The notes below the pieces were generated by a model, which did no database searches, was not told the origin of the DNA, and worked only from the letters and a program-made list of their open reading frames with translations. DNA of 64,000 nt, taken from Sandaracinaceae bacterium. Lineage in GTDB: Bacteria > Myxococcota_A > Polyangia > Polyangiales > Sandaracinaceae. This document shows positions 4,353 to 16,043 of the stretch, piece by piece. The translations under genes were made by a program, and so were the position numbers. The DNA lies in assembly GCA_040218145.1 (NCBI GenBank), contig JAVJQK010000148.1, positions 1 through 64,000 of the forward strand. Direction: 5' to 3'. The first letter of the stretch is position 1, and the number at the start of each line of letters is the position of its first letter.

Positions 4353-5270
4353 TTAGAACCGCGCGACGACGCAGGTGACGTTGTCGGTGCCGCCGTCCTC
4401 GAGGGCGTCGTCCACCAGCGTCCGGGCCGCGGACTCGGCCGTCTCGCCTCCCGCGACCGCGCCCAGGATCTCGCGGATGCGGTCGTCGCTGACGTGCTTG
4501 TTGAGCCCATCGGAGCAGAGCAGGAAGACGTCGCCCGGGAAGAGCAGGGCGTGATGGAGCTCCACGCGCAGCTCCTCGCTGTCGCCGCCGAGGGCGTTGA
4601 CGAGGATGTTGGAGAACTCGCTGTCCTCGGCCTCCTCGGAGCTCATCACCTTCGACTCGACCAGCTGCTGCGCGAGCGTGTGGTCGTGCGTGATCTGGTA
4701 GAGGCGGCTCTCCCGCATGGCGTACATGCGGCTGTCGCCCACGTGCACCACGAAGAGGTTGGGCCACGTCACGTACGCCATGGTGAGCGTGGTGCCCATG
4801 CCCTTGCGTCCGCTGCTGCTCGCCGCCTCGCGCATGTCCTGCTGGACCTTCTTCACCGCGTCGCGGAAGCCGCTCGCGAGCACCCGGCTGTCGTCGCGGC
4901 TGCGCGGCAGCGACCAGGGCATGAGCGTGAACGCGTAGCGCGCGAGGGCGTCGGTGGTCATCGCGCTCGCGACCTCACCGCCGGCGTGCCCGCCCATGCC
5001 GTCGGCCACGATCAGGATCCAGCCCTGAGGCGGGCCCTTGACCTTGGTGCCGTCGTCGACGGGGCGGCTCGACTGGTACAGCCGCATGTAGCGCTCGAGC
5101 TGCGCGACCAGGAAGCTGTCCTCGTTGTGGTCGCGGACCTTGCCGACATCCGTCAGCCCGTACACGTCCGGGTGTATGGCGGGGGCGCCGAGGCCCTCCA
5201 CTGGCCGCGCTGGCGGTGATCCCAAGGTCTCGATCTGCTGCGTGGCGTCGTCCCGGAATCGGCTGCCCAT
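4353..5270 (-). CDS. PP2C-type protein serine/threonine phosphatase
   Basis: Metal-dependent PPM phosphatase of 305 residues, expected to remove phosphates placed by Hanks-type kinases such as those encoded nearby. All signature blocks are visible in order: RDHNEDSF, VADGMGGHAGGE, GMGTTLTMAY, VGDSRMYAM, CSDGLNKHV and the closing DNVTCVVARF. These supply the Asp residues for two metal ions. There is no membrane segment, so it should be cytoplasmic. The ATG at 5270 is chosen because GGGAGG precedes it at good spacing, while the upstream ATGs at 5297 and 5294 sit in or beside a good -10 hexamer (TATGAT). It is divergent from the sugar dehydrogenase gene. Confidence 0.93.
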   Translation of the reverse strand: MGSRFRDDATQQIETLGSPPARPVEGLGAPAIHPDVYGLTDVGKVRDHNEDSFLVAQLERYMRLYQSSRPVDDGTKVKGPPQGWILIVADGMGGHAGGEVASAMTTDALARYAFTLMPWSLPRSRDDSRVLASGFRDAVKKVQQDMREAASSSGRKGMGTTLTMAYVTWPNLFVVHVGDSRMYAMRESRLYQITHDHTLAQQLVESKVMSSEEAEDSEFSNILVNALGGDSEELRVELHHALLFPGDVFLLCSDGLNKHVSDDRIREILGAVAGGETAESAARTLVDDALEDGGTDNVTCVVARF

Positions 5271-5292
5271 CCCGACCTCCCGTGTCTCGTCC

Positions 5293-5298
5293 ATCATA
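5293..5298 (-). promoter_or_regulatory. -10-like hexamer TATGAT for the phosphatase gene
   Basis: Reads GGTATGAT on the minus strand, 22 nt before the chosen start codon. Transcription would begin near 5286, leaving a short leader that contains GGGAGG. It decides the start because it overlaps the upstream ATG at 5297. Confidence 0.5.
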
Positions 5299-5369
5299 CC
5301 AAGGCGAGCGCGTATTTTCCCAGCCGGGCCATGCCCGACATGGCCGCTGCCGCTTCCGGCGGATCCGGG

Positions 5370-5375
5370 TACAGT
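5370..5375 (+). promoter_or_regulatory. -10-like hexamer TACAGT, 7 nt before an ATG
   Basis: TACAGT matches TAnnnT and lies 7 nt before the ATG at 5383, so the transcript would start at or next to the start codon (leaderless). It is one of a set of similar sites in this window. Confidence 0.4.
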
Positions 5376-5382
5376 CCCCGGC

Positions 5383-6669
5383 ATGTCTCGAGCTTCGATC
5401 CTCTTCTCTTGCCTCATCGCCCTCTCGGCCTGTGACGGCGGCGGTGACGCCGACGCCGCGGTGCCCTCGGACTCCGGTCCGCGCCCCGACGTGGGACCCC
5501 TGCCCGACGGCGCCCCGCGGCCCGACTCCGGCCCGGGGACACCCGACTCCGGGCTCCCGCCCGACACCTGCGACGATCTGACGTTGCCCGCGCTGGGCAC
5601 GGAAGAGGTCGCGCCGGGCACGCGCTTCGAGCGGCCGGTCTTCCTGACCCAGCCGGCCGGCGTCGACGGCCTCTTCATCGTCGAGCAGCCCGGTCAGATC
5701 CGCGTCGTGCGCGGCGACGGGAGCGTCGAGACCTTCCTCGATCTGCGCAGCCGGGTCGACTTCGGCGGCGAGCGCGGCCTGCTCGGTCTCGCCTTCCACC
5801 CGTCCTACGCCGACAATGGGCGTTTCTTCATCTACTACACGCCCAGCGGCGCGATGCAGAACGTGGTGGCCGAGTACGCTGCCCCCGACGACCGCTTCCG
5901 CGCGAGCGACACCGAGGTCGCGCGGCTCATGGTCATCAACGACCCGGAGAGCAACCACAACGGCGGCATGGTGGCCTTCGGCCCGGACGGGCACCTCTAC
6001 GTGGGCACGGGCGACGGCGGCGGCGGCGGGGACCGGCACGGCCCGACGGGCAACGGCCTGAACCGCGACACGCTGATGGGTAAGATCCTCAGGCTCGACG
6101 TCGACGCGGCGCCCGAATACGTCCCGTCCGACAACCCCTTCGTCGGCGGTGGCGGGCTGCCCCAGATCTGGGCCTACGGCCTGCGAAACCCGTGGCGCTT
6201 CTCCTTCGACCGCGCGACCGGCGACCTCTACATCGGCGACGTGGGCCAGAACGTCTGGGAGGAGATCGACTTCCAGCCCGCCTCGAGCGCGGGCGGCGAG
6301 AACTACGGCTGGCGCGCCTACGAGGGCTTCGAGGTCTTCAACGCGGGCAACACCGATCTCGTCCCCGAGCACGCGGAGCCCGTCCTGGTCTACGCGCACG
6401 ACGGCGGCGACCCGATCGGCGGCTGCTCCGTGACCGGCGGCTACGTCTACCGCGGCAGCGCCATCCCGGCCCTGCAGGGCTGGTACTTCTTCGGCGACTA
6501 CTGCAACAACTCGCGCGTGGCGTTCAAGATGTGCGACGGCGCGCCCGCGGGCGTGCAGATCGCGAGCGACCTGAGCTCCGGCCTGAGCAACATCGCGAGC
6601 TTCGGCGAGGACGCGGACGGCGAGCTCTACATGATCGGCACGGCCGTCCAGCGCATCGTCGCGCGCTGA
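5383..6669 (+). CDS. PQQ-dependent sugar (glucose/sorbosone) dehydrogenase lipoprotein
   Basis: Extracytoplasmic quinoprotein dehydrogenase of 428 residues, of the soluble aldose/sorbosone dehydrogenase beta-propeller family. A lipoprotein signal ends near ALSAC, then an Asp/Pro/Gly-rich linker runs to about residue 65. The family signatures follow: GERGLLGLAFHPSY, NHNGGMVAFGPDGHLYVGTGDGG, the arginine segment GLRNPWRFSFD, and GDVGQNVWEEID. These carry the PQQ-binding and Ca-binding residues. The ATG at 5383 gives an intact signal peptide. It probably oxidises sugars at the cell surface and feeds electrons to the membrane chain; the acceptor is not visible here. Confidence 0.9.
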   Translation: MSRASILFSCLIALSACDGGGDADAAVPSDSGPRPDVGPLPDGAPRPDSGPGTPDSGLPPDTCDDLTLPALGTEEVAPGTRFERPVFLTQPAGVDGLFIVEQPGQIRVVRGDGSVETFLDLRSRVDFGGERGLLGLAFHPSYADNGRFFIYYTPSGAMQNVVAEYAAPDDRFRASDTEVARLMVINDPESNHNGGMVAFGPDGHLYVGTGDGGGGGDRHGPTGNGLNRDTLMGKILRLDVDAAPEYVPSDNPFVGGGGLPQIWAYGLRNPWRFSFDRATGDLYIGDVGQNVWEEIDFQPASSAGGENYGWRAYEGFEVFNAGNTDLVPEHAEPVLVYAHDGGDPIGGCSVTGGYVYRGSAIPALQGWYFFGDYCNNSRVAFKMCDGAPAGVQIASDLSSGLSNIASFGEDADGELYMIGTAVQRIVAR

Positions 6670-6675
6670 GGAGCG

Positions 6676-8184
6676 CTACTTCTTCTTGGGAGCGAGGATC
6701 TTCGCGGCCTCGGGGGGCGGGGGGACCAGCTCGCCCACGCGGGCCTGCTCCTCCTCGCTCCAGCCGCGCTTGATGTTCTTGCCCATCCACTCGACGACCT
6801 GGCGCTCGGCGTGCTCCATCGTGCTCGCGGTGCGGAGCGCGGTCTGGAGCGGCTCCTTGCGGCCCGGCGAGTAGTCGGTGAAGAACGTCACGTAGGGCGG
6901 GTACGAGCGCTCGTCGCCCTTGTGGGTGTCGATGACCATGTACTTGCGCACCGCCACCTTGGCCTTGGTGGTCTTGCTGAAGACGGCGCGGCGCACGACC
7001 TCGGCCGGCTTCTGCTCGATGGGCGCGGCCTTCTCGTCCGGGCTCGAGAGCGGCACGCGGCTCGTGATCTGGGTCATGCCGATGCTCTCGACGTCGACCT
7101 TCTTGTCGGTCCGCTCGCGGAGGAAGATCGGGTGGATCATCACCGCGGTCGGCGTCTCCCGGATCGGCTCCCAGCCCTTGTTCTCGGTGTAGCGCAGGCT
7201 CATGCGCCGGATGGGCGCGTCCCAGCTGTCCGACGCGAGCAGATCCGAGCAGCGGATCTCCACCACGATCTTGGGCGCGACGAACTTGCTCAGCGTGCCC
7301 TCGCGGTTGGCGAGCCGGAAGCGGCTCTCCACCTGCATCGGTGAGAGGCGCTGGAACCAGTCGGCGCGATCTTGCTCGCCGAAGCCGTTGCCGACCGCGC
7401 CGAGGAGCTGGAAGGTCCCGTCGTCCCGGAGGAGCGCCACGCTCATCTCGCGGACCTGGTGCACCTCGCCCGTGATGCGCTCGCCGAACGCGATGATCAC
7501 CGCGTCGAGGGTGAGCGTGCTCTTGATCTTGTAGGTCAGCCCGCGCTCGGAGCGGACGACGAGGCCCTCGAAGCGATCGGAGACGACCCACTCGCGGTAG
7601 AGCCGCACCACGTCGGCCGGCTCGCCGACGACCGTCTCCACCACGCTGACCCGCTGGCCGCCGTCGAGCAGCTCCTTCATCCGGGTGACGCGCGCGTCGT
7701 AGTCGACGAGGAGCGTGTCCTTGCCGTCGTCCTCGACGAGATCGAAGGCGTGGAACGAGAGCGTCTTCTCGAGCTCGTCCGAGCCGAGCGCGGTCGCCAC
7801 GTGGTGCACGCGCGCCCGGCCGCTGCCGCTCTCCGGCTCCGCCACCAGCTCGCCCGCGAGGATGACGTCGCCCGCGTCCGCGAGGAGCCTCTCCGCCTCC
7901 TTCGCCAGCGGCGTCTCGCGGAGCACGCGCCCGTTGTAGGCGCACAGCGCGACCTCGCCCTCGCGCTTGACCAGGAACCAGAGCTCGCCGTCGAGCTTGG
8001 TCGAGATGTGATAGGGGCCTTGCGTGAGCAGGCGCTCGATCTGCTCCGGGTCGATGACGCGGTAGCGCTTGGCGACCTGCCGCTTGTAGATGCGCAGGCG
8101 CTTCGCCAGCGACTCGTCCGCCAGCCCCCCGACCGGCGCGCGCTTACCGTCCGCGTAGCCCGACCAGCTCTCCGACCAGAGCAT
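6676..8184 (-). CDS. ATP-dependent DNA-ligase-like nucleotidyltransferase
   Basis: Covalent nucleotidyltransferase of 502 residues. Visible motifs: motif I KLDGE with the adenylated Lys at about residue 63; YNGRV near 83 (Ia-like); FHAFDLV near 144 (III); FEGLVVRS near 205 (IV); TYKIKS near 217 (V). An OB-fold-like region follows, and HPIFLRERTDKK near 351 followed by TQI resembles ligase motif VI. A further 120 residues of unrecognised C-terminal extension end Lys-rich (APKKK). No polymerase or phosphoesterase domain is attached, so it is not a LigD. Its ATG overlaps the stop of the upstream 241-residue gene by one base (TGATG), indicating coupled translation. Strand sealing is inferred; RNA substrates cannot be excluded. 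Confidence 0.78.
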   Translation of the reverse strand: MLWSESWSGYADGKRAPVGGLADESLAKRLRIYKRQVAKRYRVIDPEQIERLLTQGPYHISTKLDGELWFLVKREGEVALCAYNGRVLRETPLAKEAERLLADAGDVILAGELVAEPESGSGRARVHHVATALGSDELEKTLSFHAFDLVEDDGKDTLLVDYDARVTRMKELLDGGQRVSVVETVVGEPADVVRLYREWVVSDRFEGLVVRSERGLTYKIKSTLTLDAVIIAFGERITGEVHQVREMSVALLRDDGTFQLLGAVGNGFGEQDRADWFQRLSPMQVESRFRLANREGTLSKFVAPKIVVEIRCSDLLASDSWDAPIRRMSLRYTENKGWEPIRETPTAVMIHPIFLRERTDKKVDVESIGMTQITSRVPLSSPDEKAAPIEQKPAEVVRRAVFSKTTKAKVAVRKYMVIDTHKGDERSYPPYVTFFTDYSPGRKEPLQTALRTASTMEHAERQVVEWMGKNIKRGWSEEEQARVGELVPPPPEAAKILAPKKK

Positions 8185-8909
8185 CAGCTCTCCTCCGCTT
8201 CGTCTTCGGTGACGCGCTTGATCTCGAGGTTCGACAGGTGGAGGACCAGGCGGTAGCCGTCGCCGTCCACGCGCCCCTCGAGGAAGCCGCGGAAGGGGGT
8301 GCCGTTGGTCTGGAAGATGAGCGGCTGCTGGGCCTTCTTGCCGGCGCCGACGTACATCAGCTTGCCTTCCTTCTGGAGCGTCTCGGCGATCTCGTAGAGG
8401 AAGTCGAAGGTCAGCCCGTTCACGTGTCGGAGCTGGAGCTTGCGGACGAAGGCGAAGCGGCGGATCACGGTGTCGATCGGCATGAGCCGCCCCGTCCACG
8501 GGATCGGCGGCAGCTCCTCGCCCACCGTCGCCTCCACGTCGACGAAGTCGTCGCGGCTCTGCTCGTTGCCCTCGGCGTCGTAGACGACCTTGAGGATCCG
8601 CGCGACGTAGAGCACGTTGCCGGCCGGGCCGAGGTAGACGCGCGACGTGTGCGTGAGCCGCCGCCCGACCTGCTCGAGATCGAGCTCGGGGTCGCCTTCG
8701 ATCAGCGCTTGCGAGAGCGCGTCGGGATCTCCGGCCTCGGCCACCAGCGCCTCGTAGGTCGTCTTCTCGGTGCCCTTGACCAGGCGCTGGTGCTGCACCG
8801 GGTTGCCGCTCGGATCGACGTAGCGGTGTCGCTCCTTCTTGCTCGGCGACTCGACCTCGATCTGCGCGTCGCGCTTCTTCGCGTCCATGATGGAAATCAG
8901 GCGGGGCAT
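8184..8909 (-). CDS. Unrecognised protein, middle gene of ligase operon
   Basis: Predicted soluble protein of 241 residues with no signal peptide or membrane segment. The N-terminal 45 residues are highly charged, with many Lys, Arg and Glu. The remainder alternates strands and helices and ends acidic (TEDEAEES). I do not recognise a family. The ATG at 8909 is supported by GGAGAGGAA four bases upstream. The stop overlaps the ligase start by one base and the preceding gene ends 16 nt upstream, so it is firmly in an operon with the ligase. A role as partner or DNA-binding subunit of the ligase is inference from gene order only. Confidence 0.72.
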   Translation of the reverse strand: MPRLISIMDAKKRDAQIEVESPSKKERHRYVDPSGNPVQHQRLVKGTEKTTYEALVAEAGDPDALSQALIEGDPELDLEQVGRRLTHTSRVYLGPAGNVLYVARILKVVYDAEGNEQSRDDFVDVEATVGEELPPIPWTGRLMPIDTVIRRFAFVRKLQLRHVNGLTFDFLYEIAETLQKEGKLMYVGAGKKAQQPLIFQTNGTPFRGFLEGRVDGDGYRLVLHLSNLEIKRVTEDEAEES

Positions 8910-8925
8910 CGGCTTCCTCTCCGGC

Positions 8926-9537
8926 TCACATCATCGAGAAGTCGAGATCGTCGTCGAGCTCGTCGATCTCTTCGTCGTCGTCCTCGTCCGCCTCGGGCGC
9001 CTCGCGCGTCAGGAAAGCGAAGCCCGTCTCCTTGCCGATGAGGGCGAAGATCCCCTCCTCGTTCGACAGCAGGAAGAGCACGTCGGGGTCGTAGCCCTCG
9101 CGGTAGTTGTAGACGCTCTCGAAGAGGTCTCCGTCCGCGAGCGCCTTCTTCAGCGCCTGACCGAGCTCCTCGGCCGCGAGCTCGTAGACGCTCGTGATCA
9201 GGCAGTCGAGCAGGCGCGCTGGCGCGACCGGCGAGAGCGGCTGCGGCTCGCCGAGCGTCGACGCGTACGCCTCGAGCGGCTCTCCCGCCTCGTCGACCGC
9301 CAGCAGGTCCGAGCGCTCCACCGTGTCGAAGTGCTCGTCCACGTAGATGTGCGCGGTTCCGCCGGGCGGCACGAGCGCCGCTCCGTCGTGGGTGAGGTAG
9401 GCGGGGACGCAGCGCTCGCCGTCTTCGTCGAGGATCACCCGCTCTTTTCGACCGTAGAGCTTGCTCCGGTCGACGCGCGTGAACTTGAAGGCGGTCTGCT
9501 CTTCGCCATACGTGAGGACGATCTCGCGACGGGCCAT
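8926..9537 (-). CDS. Unrecognised acidic-tailed protein, first gene of ligase operon
   Basis: Predicted soluble protein of 203 residues. It begins MARREIVLTYGEEQ and ends with an extremely acidic tail in which Asp and Glu dominate the last 25 residues, before a Phe-Ser-Met-Met end. The body has a beta-rich N-terminal half and a helical segment (LLDCLITSVYELAAEELGQAL). Acidic tails of this kind often mimic nucleic acid or mediate protein contacts, but nothing proves that here. The ATG at 9537 is the first natural start after a TATACA-like box 6 nt upstream. No family recognised. It probably heads the three-gene transcript. Confidence 0.68.
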   Translation of the reverse strand: MARREIVLTYGEEQTAFKFTRVDRSKLYGRKERVILDEDGERCVPAYLTHDGAALVPPGGTAHIYVDEHFDTVERSDLLAVDEAGEPLEAYASTLGEPQPLSPVAPARLLDCLITSVYELAAEELGQALKKALADGDLFESVYNYREGYDPDVLFLLSNEEGIFALIGKETGFAFLTREAPEADEDDDEEIDELDDDLDFSMM

Positions 9538-9663
9538 GGCGGATGTATACGAGCTTCCCGCCCCGAACGCGACCGTCACCTCGACGCTCCGCGACCGGGT
9601 TGCTAGCGTGGCCTCTTCGATCGAGCCGTGGCCCCCGTGGCCCGAGCCGTGCGAGAGGTGAAC

Positions 9664-11052
9664 ATGCGAAATCTGACTTGGATGACTTTGGTTCTGGCCA
9701 GCCTGATGGCCTTTGGCTGTGACGACGGCGCCGTCGATCCCGACGGTGGGATGGATCTCCCGGACACCGGGATGGATCCCGACACCGGGACGATGATGGA
9801 CCCGGACACCGGGGTGATGATGGGCGACGGGAACGACACGTTCGCCGACGCCGACCCGCTCGAGGACCCGATGACGATGGGCGCGATCGCCCAGCCTGGC
9901 GACCTCGACTACTACTCGTTCACGGGCACCGCGGGCCAGTGGGTGATCATCGAGACGAACGCCAACCCGGACGACGACCCGGAGATGATCGACACGGTCA
10001 TCACGCTCTACGACGAGTCGATGACGCAGATCGCGGAGAACGACGACAGTCAGCCGCGGGTGAACACCGACAGCGAGATCATCACGCAGCTGCCGGCCGA
10101 CGGCACCTACTACATCCTCGTTCAGGAGTTCACGACCTGGGCCGGCGAGACAGCCGAGGGCCAGGCGGACTTCACCTACGAGCTGTCGTTCGGCGGCCTC
10201 AACTTCGACGCGGAGGTCGTCACGGGTGATGCGGAGAGCGGGGACGACGCGGCCAGCGCGAACGCGCTCGGCTTCGCCATGGACACGATGGGCATGGCGA
10301 GCGACTTCGGCATCGTCGCGGGCGACTTCCGCGACGGCTCCGATGTCGATGTGTTCTCGTTCAGCATCACGCCCGGTCGCTTCTCGCTTACCGCGCAGCT
10401 CATGCCCGTGGGCACCGATGGTAACGGCGCGACGGTGACGCCCGCCGCCATCTGGATCACCAACGCGGACGGGAGCCAGATCATCGCGCGCGTCGATCCG
10501 TCGATGCTCGAGTCGGTCAACCCCCCGCTGCCGGAGGGCGACTACCTCCTGTGGGTCGAGCACGGCGGAGCCGCCTCGAGCGCGGACTTCTACGTCATGA
10601 AGCTCTTCCGCGGCCGGATCGACAACCCGCCGGAGACCATGGAGGCGACGAACGGCGTGGCGGCCACTCCCGAGCCGCTGTCGTTCGAGGCGATCATGGA
10701 CGTGCCGGGCGCGGAGCGCGCCTTCATCGGCGCGACCGTCGGCGACGGTGACACGGACTTCTATTCGCTCGAGGTCACCGACGCGAGCGAAGTGGTGAGC
10801 ATCTTCTGCGGCTCGCGCACGGCCGGTTCGGGGGTGGTCGATCTCCAGGCGGCGCTCACCGATTCGACGGGCACGACGGTGATCGAGATGGCCACCGAGA
10901 CCGCCACGGATGGGATCGCGATCCAGGAGGCGTCGGTCAGCGCGGCTGGAACCTACCTGCTGCGGCTCACCAAGGGCTCGCAAGACGCCGAGGTGACGGG
11001 CAACTGGGCGCGCTGCGGCGTGGTGGTCGGCCCGCCCGCGCCGACTCCCTGA
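9664..11052 (+). CDS. Lipoprotein with two PPC-like beta-sandwich domains
   Basis: Predicted lipoprotein of 462 residues. The signal ends LMAFGC and is followed by an Asp/Gly/Met/Pro linker with repeated PDTG units. Two domains resemble bacterial pre-peptidase C-terminal (PPC) modules: each carries a D(L/F)-D-Y/F-Y/F-S-F type strand (DLDYYSFTG, then DVDVFSFSI) and a late YYILV/YLLWV strand; a third copy (DTDFYSLEV) is near residue 365. PPC modules are usually extracytoplasmic and calcium- or ligand-binding. The ATG at 9664 follows GAGAGGTG. A strong terminator follows. No catalytic domain is present. Confidence 0.8.
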   Translation: MRNLTWMTLVLASLMAFGCDDGAVDPDGGMDLPDTGMDPDTGTMMDPDTGVMMGDGNDTFADADPLEDPMTMGAIAQPGDLDYYSFTGTAGQWVIIETNANPDDDPEMIDTVITLYDESMTQIAENDDSQPRVNTDSEIITQLPADGTYYILVQEFTTWAGETAEGQADFTYELSFGGLNFDAEVVTGDAESGDDAASANALGFAMDTMGMASDFGIVAGDFRDGSDVDVFSFSITPGRFSLTAQLMPVGTDGNGATVTPAAIWITNADGSQIIARVDPSMLESVNPPLPEGDYLLWVEHGGAASSADFYVMKLFRGRIDNPPETMEATNGVAATPEPLSFEAIMDVPGAERAFIGATVGDGDTDFYSLEVTDASEVVSIFCGSRTAGSGVVDLQAALTDSTGTTVIEMATETATDGIAIQEASVSAAGTYLLRLTKGSQDAEVTGNWARCGVVVGPPAPTP

Positions 11053-13167: not shown

Positions 13168-14823
13168 TCAGCCGGGCGGCGCGCTCGTCAGCGGGAGCGC
13201 CGGGATGGCGGGCAAGGACAGGTCGGGGTTGCGCGGGTAGACCCAGAGGACCTGGTCCCAGGTGACCGCGCCGCGCCGGACGACGAGGCGCTGCGCCCGG
13301 TCTTGCTCGTCCGCCGGGTTGATGCGCGCGTGGTCGGCGACGAAGCCGTCGTAGAGATAGTCGGTCAGCTCGCCCGCGTGGAGCACGCCGTCGCGAGGGC
13401 GGTTGTCGGCCTCGCCGAGGAGCCCGCGCCGGAGGTGCCAGGAGAGGTAGCCGCCCGCCTGGTGGGGCTCGGCCGTGTCGCTCAGGACGTCCTCGTCGCT
13501 CGAGAAGAGGCCCACCCGGTTCGGGCGCTGGACCCAGTCGTCGGCGAAGCCGCCCGCGTGGCAGGCGTCGATCGCGAGCAGCACGGTGCCCTGCACGCCG
13601 TCGAGCGCCGCGACCACCTCGTCGTCGGTCAGCGAGCCGTCGTGGAGCACGATCGTCTCGTCGAGGTCGTCCAGCTCGTCGTCGTCGTCGCCGTCGGGCT
13701 GCTGCTGGCCGTGGCCGCTGAAGAAGACGACCACCACGTCCTCGGGCCGCGCCTGCTGGGCCATCTGCGCGATGCCGCTCAAGAATCCGTCGCGCGTGGC
13801 GAGCCCGTCGGGGAGCACGAGCTGGTCGCTCTCGTCCTGGAGGTGCGCGGCCCGCATCGACTCGGCCAGGAGGCGCGCGTCGTCGGCGCAGCCGTAGAGC
13901 CGGCCCTGGGTCTCGTACTCGGTGATGCCCGCGTAGACCCCGAGCACGCGGCCTCCGCCGTTCGCGCCCGCGAGCCCCTCGGGGCGCCGGCCGTCTTCGA
14001 GCACCACGGGGGGCCGCACGTCGCTGCGGACCGCGAAGGCGCCGCTGCCCTGGCCGTAGGGGGTGACCACGAGCTGGTAGACGCCCGACTGCGGCAGCGC
14101 GGCGACGATGGTGCTGTCGAGGGCGCGCTCGGTGCCGTCGGGGCCGAGATCGTTCGCGTCGTCGTTCACCCAGGTCTGGCCGCCGGGGCCGATGAGCGTG
14201 GCGATGGTGTCGAACGCCTGCGACGTGACGCGGAGCCGCACGATGCTGCCGGCCTGCCCCTCGAAGCGCACCCAGCTCCCGGGCAAGCCGCGCACGGTGT
14301 GCTCGCTCAGCTGCGCCTCGGCCGCCTCGCCGAGGGTGAGCGGCAGGCCCGTGCCCTCGGAGGCGACCGGCTCGATGTCGAGATCGTAGGCCCCGGTCTG
14401 TCCCGCGGCGTAGGTGGTCGTCCAGATCTCGTAGACGCCGGGCTCGCCGGGCTGGAAGTCGACCATGGCCTCGAGCGTGCCGGGGAAGGCGTCGTCGTTC
14501 CGGAGGCGCTGATCGCCCGGCCCGCGCACCTCGAGGAGCGGGTCGACCGCGCGGCTGTTCATGCGCACGCGGACGCGCTGGCTGCCATCGAGCTCGAGCT
14601 GCCACACGTGGTAGTGGGCCTGGCCGTCGTTGAGGGGATCGGCCGCCGTCAGCTGGGCCTGCTGGGCGCCGAAGCGCGCCGGGCGTCGGGCCACCTCGGC
14701 CGCGGGGGCGGGGCTGGCGTCGCCGACGCCCACGGGAGCGGTCCGGGGAGCCGGGGCGGGGCTGGCGCCGCAGCCGAGGCCGACTCCCATGACGGCGAGG
14801 GCGAGGAACGGTCGGGTCCGCAT
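13168..14823 (-). CDS. Caspase-like (peptidase C14) lipoprotein with two PPC-like domains
   Basis: Predicted lipoprotein of 551 residues: lipobox near GLGC, Ala/Pro linker, then two PPC-like beta-domains (about 45-160 and 165-275, with GVYEIWTTTY and GVYQLVVTPYG). The caspase/metacaspase-like domain begins with the nucleotide-independent fold strand VLGVYAGITEY. The catalytic dyad is intact: His about 371 in FFSGHGQ and Cys about 421 in AIDACHAGG. An acidic insert (DGDDDDELDDLDE) lies between them, and calcium activation as in metacaspases is conceivable. A caspase-fold protease anchored outside the cytoplasm is unusual. The target is unknown. The ATG at 14823 gives the signal peptide. Confidence 0.85.
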   Translation of the reverse strand: MRTRPFLALAVMGVGLGCGASPAPAPRTAPVGVGDASPAPAAEVARRPARFGAQQAQLTAADPLNDGQAHYHVWQLELDGSQRVRVRMNSRAVDPLLEVRGPGDQRLRNDDAFPGTLEAMVDFQPGEPGVYEIWTTTYAAGQTGAYDLDIEPVASEGTGLPLTLGEAAEAQLSEHTVRGLPGSWVRFEGQAGSIVRLRVTSQAFDTIATLIGPGGQTWVNDDANDLGPDGTERALDSTIVAALPQSGVYQLVVTPYGQGSGAFAVRSDVRPPVVLEDGRRPEGLAGANGGGRVLGVYAGITEYETQGRLYGCADDARLLAESMRAAHLQDESDQLVLPDGLATRDGFLSGIAQMAQQARPEDVVVVFFSGHGQQQPDGDDDDELDDLDETIVLHDGSLTDDEVVAALDGVQGTVLLAIDACHAGGFADDWVQRPNRVGLFSSDEDVLSDTAEPHQAGGYLSWHLRRGLLGEADNRPRDGVLHAGELTDYLYDGFVADHARINPADEQDRAQRLVVRRGAVTWDQVLWVYPRNPDLSLPAIPALPLTSAPPG

Positions 14824-14849
14824 GGCCGAAGGGTATACGGCCCGCGTGC

Positions 14850-16043
14850 TCAACGCCCGAGGACGACGCGCAGCGACCGGATCAGCACGTCTCGATCGTA
14901 GGGGAAGAGCTGCTCGCCGTAGTGCTCGGCGATCTCCCGCGGCGTCCAGAGGCTCGCGCGCGCGAGCCGGGTCTCGGCCTCGAGGTGATCGACCCAGCCG
15001 CCGATCCGGCCCGCGTGCCAGAGCGCGGCAGGGAGGGCGACGAGGAGAGCCAGCGTCAGGAGCGCGGCGGGGAGCGTGGCCCGCCGGGCGCGGCGCCGGG
15101 CGAGCAGGAGGAGCGCGAAGACGTAGGGGAGGGCGACGAGGACCTGGTAGCGGGCGGGGACCCAGGCGTCCTCGTCCGGAGCGAGGGTGCGCGTGGCCGC
15201 GATCGCGGCCCAGGTGGCGAGCGAGCCGACGAGGCCGGCGAAGAGCGGCAGCGCGGCGCGGCGGACGGAGCGCCGCCGCGCGAGGATCGCGATGGCGCCG
15301 AGCCAGAACACGAGCACGGGCGGGGCGCTCCAGGCCCAGCGCGACAGCACGCGGTCGAGCACGGCCAGCGCGAGCCCCGCCGCCGTGTAGAGCTGGTCGG
15401 AGAGCGGGTTGTCGGGGTAGTCGACGCCCTCGGCGCCCACGAGGAGCGCCGCGCCGAAGGCGAGCGTGCCGATTGCGAACAGCGCGCCGCGCCGCCAGTC
15501 CCCCCGGAGCGGCCAGCACGCGGCGAGGCTCACCGCGAGCGCGATCCCGTTCACGCCGCAGCCCAGGCAAGCCACGACGCAGAGGGCGGCCCACCCCTCC
15601 CGGCGATGCGTCAGGAGGCACGCCGCCATCAGCGCCAGGAGGGCGGGCAGGGTGAAGCAGAGGTCGTAGGCGTGCACGATCGACAACGCGTAGGCCGGCC
15701 CCGAGAGCAGCAGAGGGAAGGCCGCGTCGACCCCCGCGGCGCGCCCGCGCAGGCGGGTCGCCAGGTGGATGGCCACGGCGCCGCCGACCCAGGCGCACAG
15801 CCACGACGCGAGCCGCATCGCGCCGAGCCCGCCGAGGTGGAACAGGACCCCGAGCGCCGCCTTCGGCAAGGGGACGCGGTGGCCGTAGTGCGGCGCGAGC
15901 AGGTCCCCGATCCCGGTGAGCGGGACGTGAACCTCGTCGAGGAGCGGGAGGCTCAGGGAGTGGACCCAGCCGAACCAGGCCGACCAAGCCCCGCAGCTCG
16001 CCCACACGGCCCAGGGCAGCCAGCGTCGGACCTCGCCCTTCAC
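14850..16043 (-). CDS. Polytopic membrane protein, glycosyltransferase-like
   Basis: About ten predicted membrane helices over 397 residues. Between helices 1 and 2 lies an Asp/Glu-containing loop (LPLLDEVHVPL) and then HYGHRVPLPK, which recalls the first luminal loop of C-superfamily (GT-C, PMT/ArnT-like) glycosyltransferases. This is a resemblance only. The C-terminus is a short soluble tail. The start is GTG at 16043, preceded by TAGACT 7 nt upstream. It lies between transhydrogenase and caspase-like genes on the same strand, but gaps of 10 and 26 nt do not prove functional linkage. Confidence 0.65.
   Translation of the reverse strand: MKGEVRRWLPWAVWASCGAWSAWFGWVHSLSLPLLDEVHVPLTGIGDLLAPHYGHRVPLPKAALGVLFHLGGLGAMRLASWLCAWVGGAVAIHLATRLRGRAAGVDAAFPLLLSGPAYALSIVHAYDLCFTLPALLALMAACLLTHRREGWAALCVVACLGCGVNGIALAVSLAACWPLRGDWRRGALFAIGTLAFGAALLVGAEGVDYPDNPLSDQLYTAAGLALAVLDRVLSRWAWSAPPVLVFWLGAIAILARRRSVRRAALPLFAGLVGSLATWAAIAATRTLAPDEDAWVPARYQVLVALPYVFALLLLARRRARRATLPAALLTLALLVALPAALWHAGRIGGWVDHLEAETRLARASLWTPREIAEHYGEQLFPYDRDVLIRSLRVVLGR

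Follow-up and report, generated by a model that had tools for sequence, protein, structure and literature searches.

A conserved three-gene operon of Myxococcota as a candidate LigD-independent end-joining system with two predicted Ku-fold proteins

Why is a stand-alone ATP-dependent ligase encoded together with two small proteins that no sequence library recognises? The question is raised by three genes in a 64,000-nucleotide stretch of DNA from a Sandaracinaceae bacterium; we refer to this whole stretch as "the window" and to the genes, in order of transcription, as A, B and C. The features used below are as follows.

8926–9537, minus strand: gene A, an ORF of 203 aa, predicted Ku-fold protein, first subunit
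8184–8909, minus strand: gene B, an ORF of 241 aa, predicted Ku-fold protein, second subunit
6676–8184, minus strand: gene C, 502-aa ATP-dependent DNA ligase (by sequence), translationally coupled to B (1-nt overlap)
8929–8949, minus strand: DLDFSMM, the conserved tip that closes the 28-residue acidic tail of A
7987–8004, minus strand: ligase motif I, STKLDG, with the nucleotidyl-acceptor Lys63, from the alignment of relatives
7099–7119, minus strand: ligase motif VI, RERTDKK, in the OB domain, from the alignment and inside the PF04679 match
6745–7011, minus strand: WGR-like core of the C-terminal ligase extension, residues 392–480, from conservation and hhalign

A first-pass annotation, made from the sequence alone, had described three genes with 16-nt and −1-nt junctions. 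These are indeed co-directional minus-strand ORFs, with a gap of 16 nt between A and B and a 1-nt overlap (TGATG) between B and C. Upstream of the trio lies a divergent gene (9628–11052, plus strand) and downstream a convergent one (5125–6669, plus strand). There are no Rfam matches in the window. Elsewhere in the window, and recognised by eye only, a minus-strand reading frame at 13168–16005 contains a caspase-like (metacaspase) stretch (GCADDARLLAE..., DACHAGG), and another at 4353–5678, also on the minus strand, resembles a PP2C-type protein phosphatase (VADGMGGHAGG).

Here, we describe how far the trio is conserved, what its three proteins resemble, and what they might do together. We consider it likely that the operon is a compact, LigD-independent end-joining system, in which A and B would be divergent Ku-fold proteins and C their dedicated ligase.

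Conservation and distribution of the trio

The distribution of the trio was assessed in a sample of 377 Myxococcota genomes from 234 genera. Protein B is present in 51 of the 377 genomes (45 of the 234 genera) and protein A also in 51; the two occur together in 49. Four genomes are therefore discordant, and three of these exceptions are only apparent: the contig of G300 ends directly after A, that of G093 begins inside B, and in G255 the match is a chance one in a non-coding shadow frame. The fourth, G067, is a real exception, in which B and C are kept and A was not detected.

Gene order was compared across 48 regions from 47 of the Myxococcota genomes. In 45 of the 47, the genes are arranged A-B-C on a single strand. 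The junctions within the trio are short among relatives, with B and C commonly overlapping as ATGA. Flanking genes vary, and no recurrent gene beyond A, B and C was found beside the trio. Since order and strand are kept across many families of the phylum, the association is far above chance. The first-pass annotation had left room for the partners to be unrelated genes, missing beside the ligase in related genomes; instead, A and B adjoin C across relatives, and we conclude that they belong with the ligase. Pairwise distances also correlate among the three proteins (r 0.84–0.88, uncorrected for the species tree). Two sister genomes of a single genus, G053 and G067 (loci L061, L062 and L063), have A outside the operon: in G053 it is on another contig, and in G067 it was not found.

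A scan of contigs with a single query sequence returned only six trio loci, all from Myxococcota-like MAGs or from MAGs loosely labelled as deltaproteobacterial or proteobacterial; in one Sandaracinaceae MAG, the trio is 99.6–100% identical to the copy in the window. No description of the trio was found in the open-access literature.

The ligase and its C-terminal extension

Protein C matches PF01068 (E 3e-10) and PF04679 (E 7e-9), and its profile matches DNA ligases of solved structure. The nearest curated models are those of ligases for non-homologous end joining (NHEJ), led by NCBIfam TIGR02779 (E 1e-19), with a score of 70.8 that lies below the cut-off of 227.75. The first-pass annotation had listed motifs I, III, IV and V and a probable motif VI. 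All five are present (I, K63-LDG; III, FHAFDL; IV, FEGLVV; V, K219-IK; VI, R356-ERTDK) and are kept in 44 of 45 aligned relatives, and the PF04679 OB domain is matched by 45/45. By these sequence criteria, i.e., motifs I, III, IV and V together with an OB domain carrying motif VI, C is an ATP-dependent DNA ligase. It is not LigD: it lacks the LigD polymerase (PF21686) and phosphoesterase (PF13298) domains and falls below the TIGR02779 cut-off.

One relative departs from this pattern. In genome G207 (L095:6331-8968), the KxDG lysine of motif I is gone from the ligase, as are several other motifs; the ligase extension, A and B remain. The C-terminal acidic tip of A is decayed in the same genome.

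Beyond the catalytic core, C carries the extension of about 120 residues that had been noticed at first reading. It is real and conserved: its conserved part, residues ~385–480, is present in 45/45 relatives, L095 included. When the extension was compared by hhalign with a myxococcotal WGR profile, built from WGR domains of the same genomes as the trio, the match had a probability of 79% and a P value of 1.6e-5. The score of 30.9 is well above that of shuffles (10.1 ± 2.6, maximum 18.2) and of the reversed profile (11.4). Single extension sequences have no Pfam WGR match. The extension is thus WGR-like by profile, without the WGR signature. As in the WGR domains of PARP1–3, its profile includes a conserved C-terminal helix ending in KKGW or KKGY; unlike in those domains, the position of the W-G-R signature is occupied in the alignment by TDYSPGR. 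The WGR domain of PARP2 bridges broken DNA ends and recognises their 5' phosphate (PMC7608914).

Structure prediction and sequence comparison of A and B

Sequence searches with A and B against Pfam, NCBIfam, PHROGs, PADLOC and the PDB returned no recognised family, and no Ku model (PF02735 or NCBIfam) is among the matches of 92 A and B proteins at E values up to 10. For this reason, we call A and B Ku-fold or Ku-like, and not members of PF02735. A match of A to PF11440 (DNA glucosyltransferase) was rejected, being weak (E 0.08) and found for one member only.

The resemblance to Ku comes from predicted structure. A and B were each modelled with AlphaFold2 as template-free single chains, using 46 family members for each and alignments that contain no Ku; pLDDT values are 86.4 for A and 85.8 for B. 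The training data of AlphaFold2 included eukaryotic Ku structures. The first-pass annotation had proposed a Foldseek comparison of both partners. At E ≤ 0.001, Foldseek returned 38 PDB matches for A and 44 for B, all of them Ku chains or Ku-containing complexes. The best match of A is B. subtilis Ku (9vnq, E 3.8e-5), and that of B is M. tuberculosis Ku (9i91, E 1.9e-5). In the viral structure library BFVD, A has exactly two significant matches, both annotated as phage Ku proteins, after which its matches drop by more than three orders of magnitude to E 0.2.

Comparison by VIA gave a similar picture. A aligns with B. subtilis Ku at Z 9.5 over 148 residues, covering Ku residues 19–188, and B aligns with Ku80 at Z 12.5 over 122 residues and with M. 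tuberculosis Ku at Z 12.0 over 174. Between 148 and 175 residues of A and B align with bacterial Ku, compared with ~110 of B with SPOC domains; since the alignment to bacterial Ku is the longer one, the match reaches past the barrel that the two folds share. A and B are therefore predicted to have the Ku core fold, a SPOC-like beta-barrel with a DNA-encircling insertion. Sequence searches bear out the earlier remark that there is "no Ku nearby", yet A and B themselves are the predicted Ku-fold proteins.

Comparison of sequence profiles shows where this assignment stands. Compared with Ku by profile, A and B stay at the level of column shuffles (15.8 and 15.9 against 14.6); this was so for a set of 23 Ku proteins and also for a larger one of 56, and so the Ku assignment rests on predicted structure. 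Between A and B themselves, there is likeness at the level of profiles: P 3.4e-4, co-linear over A 41–188 and B 86–241, with a score of 33.3 that exceeds 60/60 column shuffles (14.8 ± 2.6, maximum 21.6).

The best profile alignment of A with Ku is co-linear over nearly the whole length, with a score that is not significant. The numbering of B. subtilis Ku placed on it is provisional and agrees with the residues reported to contact DNA in that protein, K36, Y128 and R161 (PMC12784961). Opposite these three in the non-significant alignment stand K26, Y118 and R146 of A, which are conserved in 89%, 100% and 91% of the A family, respectively. K79, a lysine of the B. subtilis Ku ring, faces no basic residue of A in this alignment. 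The core of A has a mean net charge of −9, compared with −2.8 for canonical Ku cores; such acidity is odd for a DNA-binding ring.

Both proteins end with the Ku-like core, and the C-terminal arm of bacterial Ku is absent. At its C-terminus, bacterial Ku has a minimal region that is conserved and an extension that is basic; these handle LigD and DNA (PMC9638933). The minimal region, which contacts LigD, is absent from A and B. Where bacterial Ku has these two regions, A has an acidic tail, as the first-pass annotation had noticed, with a net charge of −14 over the last 28 residues in the window copy and a mean of −10 among relatives. In 43 of 46 relatives, the very last residues of the tail fit the motif [LM]DFx[MF]x. 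The accompanying description of B as beginning very basic was overstated: its first 40 residues have a net charge of +2 here, and +5 to +6 in several relatives.

A candidate end-joining system and its rivals

How might the three proteins work together? A and B, with their predicted Ku folds, are probably a highly divergent form of Ku. Most likely they would act as a heterodimer, A:B, whose Ku-type ring would thread onto broken DNA ends and hold or protect them. Contacts with the ring would recruit C to the end, plausibly by way of the conserved acidic tip of A (LDFxMF/M) and of the WGR-like extension that C carries. C would then seal the break with ATP, giving the trio a role in double-strand-break repair. 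Since the trio includes no polymerase or phosphoesterase, such a system would suit ends that need little processing, or would borrow other enzymes. The first-pass annotation had offered, as one possibility, a dedicated complex for end joining or nick sealing that includes accessory subunits; the end-joining form of this idea gains support from partners that stay with the ligase and are both predicted to have the Ku fold.

The strongest rival accepts the fold and disputes the ring. A and B could share the Ku fold yet leave DNA ends unencircled, like INTS13–INTS14 of Integrator or SPOC domains; such a scaffold could be a platform that regulates or recruits the ligase, be it for nick sealing, for replication or for some other process. 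INTS13–INTS14 and SPOC are among the VIA matches, with Z scores within about 1–2 of those of Ku. The fold lists are compatible with INTS and SPOC families, and both the acidic core of A and the missing C-terminal arm would be at ease with such a role. However, Foldseek at E ≤ 0.001 returned only Ku for both proteins, the significant BFVD matches of A are likewise Ku, the match to bacterial Ku spans about 150–175 residues and so extends past the barrel, and the partner is an NHEJ-type ligase. We regard the scaffold as unlikely.

Two further explanations we consider very improbable, and about equally so. In one, C would join RNA and the trio would serve RNA repair, an alternative that the first-pass annotation had also raised. 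There are weak matches to the RNA ligase family PF09414 in 15/45 members (best E 1.4e-5), and motif I reads KxDGEL, compared with the KxDGxR usual in DNA ligases. This reading loses most of its ground to the OB domain of DNA ligases (PF04679), which carries motif VI and is present in 45/45 members, to best curated matches that are NHEJ ligases, to solved-structure matches that are DNA ligases, to partners whose predicted fold is that of a DNA-end-binding protein, and to a neighborhood with no recurrent RNA end-healing enzyme. In the other, the trio would act against phages or as part of a mobile element, with Ku and ligase engaged in host-virus conflict and not in general repair. Its patchy spread (51/377 genomes) and varied neighbors are compatible with exchange, but PADLOC gave no match, relatives are absent from the phage (A and B), plasmid (B) and viral contig collections searched, and no recurrent defense gene adjoins the trio.

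If the trio is an end-joining system, how does it relate to the canonical one? PF02735 Ku is absent from 45 of the 51 trio genomes. The trio and Ku show no significant association, with Ku in 6/51 trio genomes and 63/326 others (p 0.24). Because most carriers are without Ku and there is no association either way, the trio is neither part of the canonical system nor dependent on it. The genome of the window does have canonical NHEJ genes: on another contig (C105:219000-223300; L105, L127), a tandem Ku-Ku pair is followed by a complete LigD with phosphoesterase, ligase and polymerase domains. The trio would therefore be a second system there. The same genome encodes two further ATP-dependent ligases, of the PRK03180 and PRK08224 types.

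Like bacterial NHEJ with a Ku homodimer and LigD, as in Mycobacterium and Bacillus, the trio is a minimal system of two or three genes that combines Ku-fold end-binding subunits (as predicted) with an NHEJ-type ATP-dependent ligase. It differs in having two distinct, paired Ku-fold proteins that Ku sequence models miss, and a stand-alone ligase that has a WGR-like extension in place of the LigD polymerase and phosphoesterase domains. In having two different Ku-fold subunits and a separate ligase, it recalls eukaryotic Ku70/Ku80 with DNA ligase IV, and the top score of B is to Ku80 (see above). A and B are much smaller than Ku70/Ku80, however, and lack vWA and SAP domains; C lacks BRCT domains, and no XRCC4 or DNA-PKcs homologue was seen in the operon. 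Some bacteria, such as Sinorhizobium meliloti and Streptomyces ambofaciens, have more than one Ku gene, possibly with heteromeric products, as does the genome of the window in its tandem Ku genes. Unlike A and B, those are recognizable PF02735 proteins that go with LigD; both kinds coexist in the genome of the window.

End joining by Ku and a ligase is already known. The novelty would lie in two Ku-like subunits, cryptic in sequence, that come with a LigD-free ligase of their own bearing a WGR-like domain. We lean towards a broader proposal, held a little less firmly than the end-joining role itself: A and B may be an obligate two-subunit branch of bacterial Ku, cryptic in sequence and coupled to its own ligase by the tip of A and the WGR-like domain, that gives end joining to many Myxococcota counted as lacking NHEJ, and that would be a heterodimeric Ku outside eukaryotes. 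Surveys of bacterial NHEJ use sequence profiles of Ku and LigD, e.g., in hmmsearch at 1e-4 (PMC7719229). A Ku-fold pair missed by such profiles would be present in about one in seven of the Myxococcota genomes sampled, most of them apparently Ku-free. If so, bacterial end joining is commoner and more varied than has been counted, and Ku heterodimers are not a eukaryotic speciality. The trio would also offer a minimal three-protein system in which to study how Ku hands a break over to a ligase without LigD, and it might serve genome editing in hosts that lack NHEJ.

One variant of the ligase stands apart from the rest. In genome G259 (L096:3290-6469), a single reading frame of 1060 aa joins the trio ligase to an AAA+ ATPase (PF00004, AAA_lid_3) at its C-terminal end; the ATPase is a possible remodelling partner, e.g., for unloading of the ring.
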